This document shows positions 51,979 to 57,325 of a DNA stretch of 64,000 nucleotides, one piece after another. Both the position numbers and the translations under genes were made by a program. The first letter of the stretch is position 1. Every line of letters starts with the position of its first letter. Source of the DNA: Gammaproteobacteria bacterium (GTDB taxonomy: Bacteria > Pseudomonadota > Gammaproteobacteria > Tenderiales > Tenderiaceae); assembly GCA_016200485.1 (NCBI GenBank), contig JACQEP010000004.1:1-64000 (forward strand), written 5' to 3'. The notes below the pieces were generated by a model that was given only the letters and a program-made list of their open reading frames with translations, searched no databases and was not told where the DNA came from.

Positions 51979-52887
51979 CTACTGCGTGGGAAATTTTCCG
52001 CCAGGGATACACCTGCCCACCGAACCCATCGCGCAGATCGTCCGATCCACCCAAATGGCACGATCGAGTTTGGCACCTTCCAGCTTGGCGCCGCTAAGAT
52101 CGGCCCCCCAAAAATCGGCGTAGGACAAATCGCTACCACTCAAATCCGCACCTTGCAGATTGCTCCCCTGAAACGCAGCCCCGACAAGTTTTGCAAAACG
52201 AAAATCAGACTGAACCATCTCCGACATGCTCAGATTGGTGTAGGAAAGATCGGCATCCGCAAGAACAACACCGCTAAAATTACTCCCCGAAAAATTAGCA
52301 TTCATTGCCTCTGCACCACGCATATTGATCTGCTGAAGATCGATACCCTGCATGAAACAATTGTTCCAGTTAACCTTAGGCCCCGGCGCTGCTGCACAAT
52401 CCGCCGCATTGCTAAATTGAGTCTCCGGCTTGTACTCCCAGATCACCCATATCATCACCCCCAATACCACTCCGAGAAATGGAATCACTAACATCATGGA
52501 CGGTTGATCACGCCTCGCCTCCAGCATCCGTTCCAATCTGGCTTTGCGATAGGTAACCTCTTCCGGCGATTCAAACTCACGGCGATCTGTGCCACGACGA
52601 TTCTGATCTGGATTATCCTGTTGCTGCCGGCGATCCAGGGATCGTTCATCAGCAGCACGACGAGCCGCTTCCAGCCGATCCTGTGCAATCGGATCAGTAA
52701 GATCCGCCTTCATCACTTCGGGGATCAGTTCCTCAACTTCGTTAATCTTTTGCCAACTCTTGCGATCGAGACTGACTTCATCGCTATCATGTAAGCGACC
52801 GATCAATAAATACTGGGCAATTACCCGCTGGGGGAAAGGCCCCCGCACGTCATCGTTGCGTCGCGTGTACCACAGTTGATGGCTCAT
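51979..52887 (-). CDS. GYF-like/pentapeptide-repeat membrane protein
   Basis: A roughly 302-residue protein. The N-terminus MSHQLWYTRRNDDVRGPFP resembles a GYF_2 domain (W-Y...G-P-hydrophobic). A charged linker with many Arg and Gln (RRAADERSLDRRQQQD) follows, then one membrane helix (MMLVIPFLGVVLGVMIWVIW near residue 140), and a C-terminal pentapeptide array (ANFSGSNFSGVVLADADLSY onward, about 13 repeats) ending with two cysteines. The array should be periplasmic or cytoplasmic depending on topology. No function is known. ATG at 52887. Confidence 0.85.
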   Translation of the reverse strand: MSHQLWYTRRNDDVRGPFPQRVIAQYLLIGRLHDSDEVSLDRKSWQKINEVEELIPEVMKADLTDPIAQDRLEAARRAADERSLDRRQQQDNPDQNRRGTDRREFESPEEVTYRKARLERMLEARRDQPSMMLVIPFLGVVLGVMIWVIWEYKPETQFSNAADCAAAPGPKVNWNNCFMQGIDLQQINMRGAEAMNANFSGSNFSGVVLADADLSYTNLSMSEMVQSDFRFAKLVGAAFQGSNLQGADLSGSDLSYADFWGADLSGAKLEGAKLDRAIWVDRTICAMGSVGRCIPGGKFPTQ

Positions 52888-53007
52888 AAGCTCGACTATA
52901 ACGCTGCCACGATTCACTTCCAATCAGACTAGCCGACCGCCAGCCCCTGTCTTATACTGCTTATACCTTGAATTATCGGCATATTCCGCCAATGCTTTAT
53001 ATATAAA

Positions 53008-54572: not shown

Positions 54573-54593
54573 TGTAGGGGCGATTCATGAATC
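54573..54593. repeat. GTAGGGGCGATTCATGAATC repeat, copy 1
   Basis: Contains the 12-base palindrome GATTCATGAATC (54582-54593). The same palindrome occurs at 55252-55263. The two copies flank the DUF2802 gene and the 59-codon gene. Confidence 0.6.
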
Positions 54594-54616
54594 CTCAGTA
54601 CGTTTTCAACAAGCTG

Positions 54617-55015
54617 TCAGACCAGTTCTTCTGCTACCGATGTTCCATGCAACCGCACCAGCAACTCCGCCTCTTCGCGCAGCAAATGGCAGCGTTTCAT
54701 CAGATCAGTAACTGACGCACCGCGCTGAGCCATTTCAATGGCCTGATTGTAGGTCTGTACCGAGGGATCGTGCACATCCATTTGATCCTGACGATAGGAG
54801 AGATTACCCAACTTGGACTCCACTCGCGCCAGATGTGTACCCACACCCGCCGCACCGGCATACAAAGCCCGCAATTCGTTTTCAATCACCTTGATGCGCA
54901 GGCATGCCGAATTTAATTCACGATTCAACCGTCGCTGCCGCCGAATCAGGATCATCCCGCCCAGCAACAACACTCCAATTAACGAAAATACAATGATGGC
55001 ACTTATCGTATCCAT
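54617..55015 (-). CDS. DUF2802 membrane-anchored protein
   Basis: A 132-residue protein with an N-terminal transmembrane helix (ISAIIVFSLIGVLLLGGMI), a coiled coil (RRLNRELNSACLRIKVIENEL) and the DUF2802 tail ending with AIEMAQRGASVTDLMKRCHLLREEAELLVRLHG. It occupies the same place, last gene after cheW, as the DUF2802 genes of Pseudomonas chemotaxis operons. Its function is not known. A link to chemotaxis is inferred from position. Confidence 0.85.
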   Translation of the reverse strand: MDTISAIIVFSLIGVLLLGGMILIRRQRRLNRELNSACLRIKVIENELRALYAGAAGVGTHLARVESKLGNLSYRQDQMDVHDPSVQTYNQAIEMAQRGASVTDLMKRCHLLREEAELLVRLHGTSVAEELV

Positions 55016-55030
55016 CGCAAAAATCCTGTG

Positions 55031-55210
55031 CTATGCATATTCATCGATCCCCGTTTGACCATCATCGCGCGGCCCTTGGTCTTTTTTGGGTGGTTGCTTT
55101 TTTGGGGGTTGTCGCGGTGGCTGCTGCGACTTTTCCTTGTCATCAATGGGTCGTAACGGTCTCTGGGGCCAAGTGGGTCCAACGGGAGGTGTATTATCAA
55201 TCTCGGCCAT
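55031..55210 (-). CDS. Small proline-rich protein in the che operon
   Basis: A 59-codon frame on the minus strand, ATG at 55210, stop TAG at 55031: MAEIDNTPPVGPTWPQRPLR at the start, a basic, Pro/Gln/Lys-rich middle and a GQTGIDEYA end. The PPVGPTWPQRP opening and the acidic DEYA end resemble short proteins found between cheW and DUF2802 in other gammaproteobacterial chemotaxis operons. It lies 57 bases after cheW and 15 before the DUF2802 gene. No ribosome site is obvious. Probably disordered; the role is unknown. Confidence 0.65.
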   Translation of the reverse strand: MAEIDNTPPVGPTWPQRPLRPIDDKEKSQQPPRQPPKKQPPKKDQGPRDDGQTGIDEYA

Positions 55211-55250: not shown

Positions 55251-55272
55251 CGATTCATGAATCGTCCCTACA
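55251..55272. repeat. GTAGGGACGATTCATGAATC repeat, copy 2
   Basis: On the minus strand TAGGGACGATTCATGAATCG begins with the cheW stop codon TAG (55268-55270). It shares the GATTCATGAATC palindrome with 54582-54593. A related unit overlaps the dnaE stop at 11332. Confidence 0.6.
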
Positions 55273-55756
55273 GACTGGAAAACTCCTTCCATTCTTCGTC
55301 AGTCAACAATTTATCAATATCCACCAGAATCAACAAACCGTCATCGCGATTAGCGACCCCTTGAATATAGCGCGAACTCTCATTGTTGCCGACTCTCGGT
55401 GCACTCTCGATCTCGTTCTGCTTGAGATAAACCACTTCCGCCACGCTGTCGACCAGGATGCCCACTACCTGCTCCCCGGCCTCAATAATCACAATCCGGG
55501 TGGAGTCATCTGATTCTTTTTGATCCAACCCAAAGCGCTTGCGGGTATCCACTACCGTAACCACATTTCCGCGAAGGTTAATAATCCCGAGTACATAATC
55601 CGGCGCACCGGGGACAGGCGCAATTTCCGTCATGCGCAACACTTCCTGTACCTGCATGACATTAATACCGAAGGTTTCTTCCCCCAGGCGAAAGGTAACC
55701 CATTGAGTTACTTCACTATCCTGTGCTTGTGCCTGCGACTGATGATTTATGCTCAT
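55268..55756 (-). CDS. cheW: Chemotaxis coupling protein CheW
   Basis: CheW links chemoreceptors to CheA. The 162-residue protein has EVTQWVTFRLGEETFGINVMQVQEVLR, PGAPDYVLGIINLRGNVVTVVDTRKRFGL and VVGILVDSVAEVV, all typical. The ATG at 55756 has GGGAG 10 bases before it; an upstream TTG would add six residues. Follows parP by 82 bases; the stop codon is inside a repeat. Confidence 0.96.
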   Translation of the reverse strand: MSINHQSQAQAQDSEVTQWVTFRLGEETFGINVMQVQEVLRMTEIAPVPGAPDYVLGIINLRGNVVTVVDTRKRFGLDQKESDDSTRIVIIEAGEQVVGILVDSVAEVVYLKQNEIESAPRVGNNESSRYIQGVANRDDGLLILVDIDKLLTDEEWKEFSSL

Positions 55757-55838: not shown

Positions 55839-56543
55839 TCATATGTCGTCTCCGCGACGAGTTTCTTTAGTTGTACCCGGACTCACTAATCCGATAAGGC
55901 GCTCGACATCCAGCAGGGCGCACATTTGGTCGATCAACATCCCGGCCAGCCATGGCCGCTGGCTCCTATCCCTTCTCCAGCGTATCTTGTCACGTGTCAA
56001 TTTTAGGACCTTACCCATACTTTCACAGGCCAGTCCCCATTCGCCATTGCCCACCAGGATGATGTGTGTGAAGGGACGTGACTGCGCCAAGGCCTCACGC
56101 GCCCGATGACGCTCGGGGATCACGAGGCGGGCCACATCAATCACCTTTACCTGCCGCCCCCGCACCGGCATCAACCCAAGAAACCAATCCTGACGTCCTG
56201 GCAAGGCGGTCACTTGATTATTCCATCTCACAATACCATTCAGTTCGATCAAGGGCACCGCCAACGTCAGCGCCCCGGCTACCTTATATAAGACGCAATC
56301 GAATTGACTGTCCGCCCATGCGGGATACGTCAATTCCACTTCCACTGCGTTAGTTTCTGATTTTTGCCCAACTACGACTTGCGATGAAGCCACCGGAACC
56401 ATTTGGCTCTCAACCACCTGCAAGGCGGGTATAGACGTAATGGCGACTTCAGTAACATCATCCAGCAAAGCATCGATATAAACCTTGAGCGCCAGATCCT
56501 GCGCAAGCAATTGTCCAACCGCCTGTTTTTCAAGCACCGTCAT
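55839..56543 (-). CDS. CheW-domain protein, ParP-like
   Basis: A 234-residue protein with a CheW-like domain in its C-terminal half (ALTLAVPLIELNGIVRWN, LMPVRGRQVKVIDVARLVIP, LACESMGKVLKLT) and an N-terminal acidic segment. In Vibrio and Pseudomonas the gene in this position, right after parC, encodes ParP, which ties the ParC ATPase to CheA and the receptor array at the pole. It overlaps parC by four bases. Naming as ParP rests mainly on position. Confidence 0.8.
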   Translation of the reverse strand: MTVLEKQAVGQLLAQDLALKVYIDALLDDVTEVAITSIPALQVVESQMVPVASSQVVVGQKSETNAVEVELTYPAWADSQFDCVLYKVAGALTLAVPLIELNGIVRWNNQVTALPGRQDWFLGLMPVRGRQVKVIDVARLVIPERHRAREALAQSRPFTHIILVGNGEWGLACESMGKVLKLTRDKIRWRRDRSQRPWLAGMLIDQMCALLDVERLIGLVSPGTTKETRRGDDI

Positions 56544-57325
56544 ATCGCTACCGCTCGGGTCACATTTTTCTCATTCAGTTTCAGGGCTTCCAGCAACTGC
56601 TGATAGGCAACAACTCCGCGTGCACCCGGCTCCATCATCGGTAATGGAATACCGGCCTTGCTGGCCTCCCGGAATTGCGTATCTACAGGAATCACTGAGT
56701 TCCATAAATCCGGCGCATAACGCTCACGCAATGTCTGCAACGCATCTGTCGAAGCACGTGTCCGCCGATCAAATAACGTTGGCACGATCAAGTAAGGCAG
56801 CTTGACACTGCGCGAACGCGTGATCATCGTCAATGTATTTACCATCCGCTCTAATCCTTTTAATGCCAGGAACTCTGTTTGCACTGGAATCACCAGTTGA
56901 TCACACGCCGCCAGGGCATTGACCATCAAGACGCCTAACATCGGCGGGCAATCAATGACTGCGTAATCAAACTGGTCACTGAGTTGAGTCAGCGCCTTTT
57001 TAATGACCAAGCCCATTCCGCTCTTGGTCCCCAGCTGTCGATCCAATGTTGCCAACGCCATTGACGCTGGCAACAATCGCAACCGATCAAAGCGCGTTGG
57101 CAGAATCACGCTTTGCGGACTGATGTGAGTATCCTGAAATAAAGTATATACACTCTTTTCCAGATCGTCCGGGCTATAGCGAAAATAAGAGGTCAAAGAA
57201 CCATGCGGGTCGATATCCACCAGTAAAGTGCGTTGCCCCGCCCTTGCCAGCAAACCACCCAGCGAAACCGCTGTTGTGGTTTTACCCACACCCCCCTTTT
57301 GATTGGCAATGGCGATCACTTTCAT
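56540..57325 (-). CDS. ParA-family ATPase of the chemotaxis operon (ParC)
   Basis: A 261-residue MinD/ParA-type ATPase starting MKVIAIANQKGGVGKTTTAV, with the deviant Walker A at residues 10-17, LLVDIDPHGSLTSYF and VIDCPPMLGVLMVNALAA. In chemotaxis operons ParC positions the signalling array at the old pole. It lies between motD and the ParP-like gene, starting two bases after the motD stop. Confidence 0.9.
   Translation of the reverse strand: MKVIAIANQKGGVGKTTTAVSLGGLLARAGQRTLLVDIDPHGSLTSYFRYSPDDLEKSVYTLFQDTHISPQSVILPTRFDRLRLLPASMALATLDRQLGTKSGMGLVIKKALTQLSDQFDYAVIDCPPMLGVLMVNALAACDQLVIPVQTEFLALKGLERMVNTLTMITRSRSVKLPYLIVPTLFDRRTRASTDALQTLRERYAPDLWNSVIPVDTQFREASKAGIPLPMMEPGARGVVAYQQLLEALKLNEKNVTRAVAI

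Follow-up and report, generated by a model that had tools for sequence, protein, structure and literature searches.

A small gene beside fipA in Gammaproteobacteria encodes a conserved, probably disordered protein, a candidate adaptor of the FlhF-FlhG-FipA module

Introduction

The closest described system is that of FipA, a membrane protein with a transmembrane segment and a single cytoplasmic copy of DUF2802 (PMC11620751). According to that source, FipA binds FlhF, is needed for polar localization of FlhF and is restricted to genomes that also encode FlhF and FlhG. FlhF links HubP to FliG (PMC11236974), and ParC and ParP are polar array localization proteins of Vibrio (PMC5706961).

We describe here a small gene that adjoins fipA on the same strand in nearly all genomes that carry it. 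The small protein differs from FipA in having neither a transmembrane segment nor a DUF2802 domain, nor any Pfam match. In the DNA analyzed, the gene lies in the same cluster as putative genes for ParP and ParC; these, however, are folded CheW-like and ParA-like proteins, and some copies of the small gene have neither in their vicinity. In SSB and FtsZ an acidic disordered tail ends in a short invariant C-terminal peptide. The analogy to the tail of the small protein is one of possible working, with no sequence kinship found or claimed, and unlike SSB and FtsZ the small protein has no attached folded domain. The chemoreceptor C-terminal pentapeptide NWETF is a tether. Both NWETF and the tip of the small protein are short aromatic-acidic peptides at the extreme C terminus, but their residues differ and the tip is not on a receptor.

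The small gene and its surroundings

The window, i.e. the whole 64,000-nucleotide stretch analyzed (contig JACQEP010000004.1 of a member of the Tenderiaceae), contains the small gene at 55031..55210 on the minus strand, an assignment drawn from conservation, profile matches and dN/dS. The frame runs from an ATG start to a TAG stop and its product has 59 aa, MAEIDNTPPVGPTWPQRPLRPIDDKEKSQQPPRQPPKKQPPKKDQGPRDDGQTGIDEYA (minus-strand translation, 55210 to 55031); the plus strand across 55031-55210 is broken by a stop. The preliminary description had placed a frame at exactly these positions, naming no strand, and the head PPVGPTWPQRP, the Pro/Lys/Gln body and the DEYA end that it gave match the minus-strand translation. 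An in-frame stop is located three codons 5′ of the ATG with no alternative start codon between them, so this ATG is the sole possible start. The ribosome-binding site of the window copy is weak (TAGGG about 14 nt 5′ of the ATG). The head motif occupies residues 8-18 (55157..55189, minus strand) and the C-terminal tip residues 54-59 (55034..55051, minus strand); the tip reads GIDEYA here and HIDEYA in most relatives.

Directly 5′ of the gene is cheW (55268..55756, minus strand; PF01584, E 1.1e-43), whose stop is 57 nt upstream. Directly 3′ is the gene for a 132-aa DUF2802 protein of the FipA family (54617..55015, minus strand; PF10975, E 3.2e-21), which starts 15 nt downstream. A second CheW-domain protein (55839..56543; PF01584, E 7.4e-16) and a ParA-type ATPase (56540..57325; PF13614, E 1.6e-49), both on the minus strand, are taken by us, from their position, to be ParP-like and ParC-like, respectively. 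The order of transcription is CheA, CheB, MotA-like and MotB-like proteins (presumably MotC and MotD), the ParA-type ATPase, the second CheW-domain protein, CheW, the small gene and DUF2802. This cluster is faced by an FlhB-like gene (TIGR00789 match) and a FliK-like gene. Neither a promoter nor a terminator was found on the minus strand of the spacer between cheW and the small gene, and the spacer has no special fold (z-score 0).

Several other features of this DNA were observed. The window holds two copies of a palindromic repeat, TAGGGGCGATTCATGAATCG, at 54575-54594 and at 55251-55270; the latter copy (listed on the minus strand) is between cheW and the small gene and includes the cheW stop codon. 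Genome-wide, 80 forward and 80 reverse matches to the repeat were found (up to three mismatches), the reversed control giving 1 and 0. The same genome has 13 CheW-domain matches, most of them on the window contig (G000:C4, about 55-144 kb), which suggests that it may hold several chemosensory systems. The C-terminal half of a 314-aa ORF at 51979-52923 (minus strand) appears by eye to be pentapeptide-repeat-like.

Conservation and distribution

A search of 144 genomes with the single sequence returned full-length relatives, the strongest at E 4e-12, in the family of the window and beyond; judged by these relatives, the frame is conserved far beyond chance. An alignment of 20 relatives shows no variation at M1 or D56-E57-Y58 and retention of P9, P12, W14 and P15 in at least 90%, in agreement with the conserved PTWP...DEYA frame expected earlier. 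Recurrence of the frame between cheW and DUF2802, as claimed in the preliminary description, was verified by tblastn, which found both neighbors beside relatives.

A profile built from the 20 relatives was run against 370 gammaproteobacterial genomes, each of at least 90% completeness, and matched in 73 of them at E<=0.003; PF10975 (DUF2802) matched in 171 of the same genomes. At least 69 of the 73 profile matches are, among the matches listed, directly upstream of DUF2802 on the same strand, with 159-436 nt between the small gene and the DUF2802 domain. A 70th (genome G370) adjoins FipA and has CheW beside it as well, and two others (G301 and G077) are beside CheW in sequence cut by a contig end. 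Counts for DUF2802 loci cover 150 of the 171 genomes, among the matches listed. Of the listed DUF2802 genomes, 80 lack an adjacent profile match; in 18 of these we detected a diverged copy, defined as an ORF that lies just upstream of FipA, spans at least 45 codons and has the tip pattern. In these 80 loci the tip pattern was found at 18 of 308 ORF ends up to 700 nt upstream of FipA, compared with 0 of 1173 ORF ends elsewhere in the same loci and 2 of 6100 in a control set of 40 longer loci. Because diverged copies were gathered by their tail pattern, which selects for the tail itself, tail percentages from sets gathered in this way are biased; unbiased support for the tail comes from the 20-relative alignment, the profile search, the comparison of DUF2802 coordinates and the per-genome tip count.

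Overall, the small gene is present in at least 88 of the 150 listed DUF2802 genomes (70 adjacent profile matches and 18 diverged copies). Of 41 other DUF2802 loci with CheW, 34 have at most 274 nt between CheW and the DUF2802 domain. Thus at least 34 of the 80 loci have no room for the small gene, which is therefore dispensable for FipA in those lineages. Mapped on a FipA tree (FastTree, 174 rows after thinning), its presence requires 21 changes, whereas 30 shuffles averaged 46.8; the distribution is patchy, not random.

Values of dN/dS (NG86) ranged from 0 to 0.59 and were 0.32 or lower in 59 of 62 close pairs (dS<2, at least five differences), the pairs being not independent, with many from Thiodiazotropha and related symbionts. 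Three pairs come from the family of the window; its own gene, with a nearest relative 51% identical, is outside all 62. By this measure selection on the small gene is purifying.

The exact HIDEYA-stop pattern occurs in 97 stretches in genome contigs, 78 of which are the gene beside CheW or FipA; some of the other 19 are plainly chance (Paenibacillus, Lachnospiraceae, Bacteroidetes). Carriers include Ectothiorhodospira, Candidatus Thiodiazotropha, Candidatus Tenderia, Thiogranum, Sedimenticola, Thiohalobacter and Methylocaldum. A search for spread outside the class, covering 397 genomes of the phylum, gave full-length matches only in the window and two other Gammaproteobacteria; the remaining matches were weak and mostly partial. 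As far as sampled, these searches place the family in Gammaproteobacteria only. One contig titled Rhodospirillales (Alphaproteobacteria; locus L104) shows the order fliA-gene-fipA, which reflects either wrong binning or spread of the gene past Gammaproteobacteria.

The window protein matched no Pfam or NCBIfam family over the curated cut-off. With 44 members, NCBIfam gave no match and Pfam a single weak one (DUF7620, E 0.0042). A description of the gene was not found in titles and abstract starts of the literature on DUF2802, cheW and FlhF/FlhG polar flagella. The family has no name, and Pfam and NCBIfam models for it are absent. Taken together, these comparisons indicate that the small gene is almost certainly a genuine, conserved protein-coding gene.

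Protein architecture

The 137 distinct small proteins are 53-90 aa long (median 58) and contain 39% D/E/K/R and 16% order-promoting residues. They share a tripartite layout in which a linker, charged and of low complexity (89% D/E/K/R/Q/P/N/S/G/H), joins a Pro/aromatic head to a near-invariant tip, [I/V]DEY[A/V]-stop, which is the best-kept part of the protein; the net charge of the last 12 residues averages -3.4. Within residues 8-21 of the head, P directly preceded by an aromatic or aliphatic residue was found in 109 of the 137 distinct genes, and exact WP in 47. The head varies between a WPxRP type and, in several lineages, a longer one that reads TPLVREKRHYP. Seven loci (L101, L118, L119, L143, L155, L197 and L199) represent a longer subfamily with the head TPLVREKRHYP or close to it and with the tip HIDEY[AV] kept.

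AlphaFold2 run with 44 sequences gave no secondary structure, with a pTM of 0.19 and a pLDDT of 74; the latter exceeds the usual value for plain disorder. No fold was thus predicted for this low-complexity, probably disordered protein.

Nine of ten genomes contain a single match to the tip pattern and the tenth (G280) contains two, and the idea that the tip is a motif shared by other pole or chemotaxis proteins was rejected because it is single in nine of the ten. The second G280 match (G280:C1:439018-439034, locus L297) occurs in addition to a gene in the usual place; FipA and CheW were not found beside it. A candidate Rosetta-stone fusion, a 249-aa frame in G255, was also discarded, since in this GC-rich DNA the frame reads through cheW out of frame.

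Gene neighborhood and alternative explanations

HMMs for FipA and CheW were run on 343 loci, duplicates included, 208 of which have the small gene. Both neighbors were found in 186 of these 208, FipA only in 19 and CheW only in three; for the 144 distinct genes the corresponding numbers are 126, 15 and three. All three CheW-only genes are at contig ends, with 58, 124 and 338 nt of downstream sequence left. Two FipA-only genes (L129 and L173) have no upstream sequence. In the 13 that do, the upstream ORF, identified by eye, is motD (six), fliA (five), a parC-like ATPase (one) or unrelated (L177). FipA is beside all 141 distinct genes with enough downstream sequence, a figure that is partly circular because selection required a FipA or CheW neighbor, the unbiased count being 70 of 73. 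A median of 9 nt separates the small-gene stop from the first possible start of FipA. No clean column marking carriers was found in an alignment of 202 FipA sequences, 142 with the small gene and 60 without it (best Jensen-Shannon value 0.30).

Several explanations for these data were considered. The weak ribosome-binding site of the window copy would suit a frame that is not translated, be it a conserved leader or one arising by chance. This is hardly credible in view of the amino-acid conservation, the dN/dS values far below 1, the length variation in whole codons, which preserves the frame, and an SD-like core present 5′ of 59 of the 137 distinct genes versus 21% in shuffles. The preliminary description regarded the frame as a gene of the chemotaxis operon encoding a linker or regulator of the chemosensory array; such a protein would serve CheW, ParP or ParC as a tether to the array or the pole. 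It is true that cheW is the commonest upstream neighbor, directly upstream in 126 of the 144 distinct genes, and that among 20 long loci with the small gene ParP was found in 17 and a ParC-type match in all 20 (the ParC query may also match FlhG). However, ParP and ParC-type matches were as common in 20 loci without the gene (19 and 20, respectively; both sets were hand-picked for long contigs), and chemotaxis genes are equally present near fipA loci that lack it. In a 14.7-kb locus of G071 the order is motC-motD-gene-fipA, and cheW, cheA and parP are all absent. CheW was found somewhere in nine of ten carrier genomes tested; the tenth, G334, carries a diverged copy and gave no CheW match in any part of its draft genome (about 90% complete). 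Where cheW and fipA part, the small gene remains with fipA, and a role as an array component was accordingly down-weighted and now seems unlikely. The data support the part of the earlier proposal that describes a genuine, conserved small protein of low complexity, probably disordered and recurrent at this position; its assignment to the array and to the chemotaxis operon is not supported.

A protein with one end on chemosensory pole proteins and the other on FipA or FlhF, allowing array and flagellum to share a pole, would agree with the separate conservation of the two ends, with the variable linker between them and with the position of the gene between cheW and fipA in most genomes. Such a coupler is nevertheless improbable, since the gene persists where chemotaxis genes are not nearby. 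Another explanation is a flagellar regulator that is not tied to FipA but binds FlhF, FlhG or FliA, and that is found beside fipA through fixed operon order. In G072 the small gene is located after flhG-fliA (locus L262, G072:C10), no DUF2802 match was found in the genome, and neither FipA nor cheW was found in the 3-kb locus; this is the single exception to the link with fipA. FipA may thus not be the direct partner, which, judging by G072, could be FlhF or FlhG, and fliA is directly upstream of the gene in several loci. Against such a regulator, FipA is the only neighbor kept in every gene of the partly circular count (and in 70 of 73 of the unbiased one), and we consider this explanation unlikely.

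Proposed role and significance

The small gene stays with fipA, which implicates the FlhF-FlhG-FipA module, and FlhF was above cut-off in all ten carriers tested, out of at least 73 known. The small protein probably works in this module rather than in the chemosensory array. Its two separately conserved ends and variable charged linker suggest a tether or adaptor, and a two-ended mode of action is proposed tentatively. With similar caution, the best overall explanation of the sequence data may be that of a two-ended disordered adaptor of the FlhF-FlhG-FipA module, which places the polar flagellum. Such an adaptor would contact one partner through its Pro/aromatic head and another through its acidic [HG][IV]DEY[AV]-COOH tip, with the reach set by the charged linker (proteins of 53-90 aa). 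The likeliest partners would be the cytoplasmic DUF2802 domain of FipA, and FlhF. The small protein could stabilize capture of FlhF at the pole or regulate it by competition, and co-expression from the same transcript would fix its ratio to FipA.

A well-studied operon has concealed a protein family for which neither Pfam nor NCBIfam has a model, because its members are short and low in complexity. Its presence beside fipA in so many of the listed DUF2802 genomes makes it a ready candidate for the missing step. More speculatively, the family might be a missing dedicated component of polar-flagellum placement, a bivalent disordered adaptor that, in a large share of the polar-flagellated Gammaproteobacteria, acts together with FipA and FlhF; the latter two would then work differently in the many lineages that lost the small gene or never had it.
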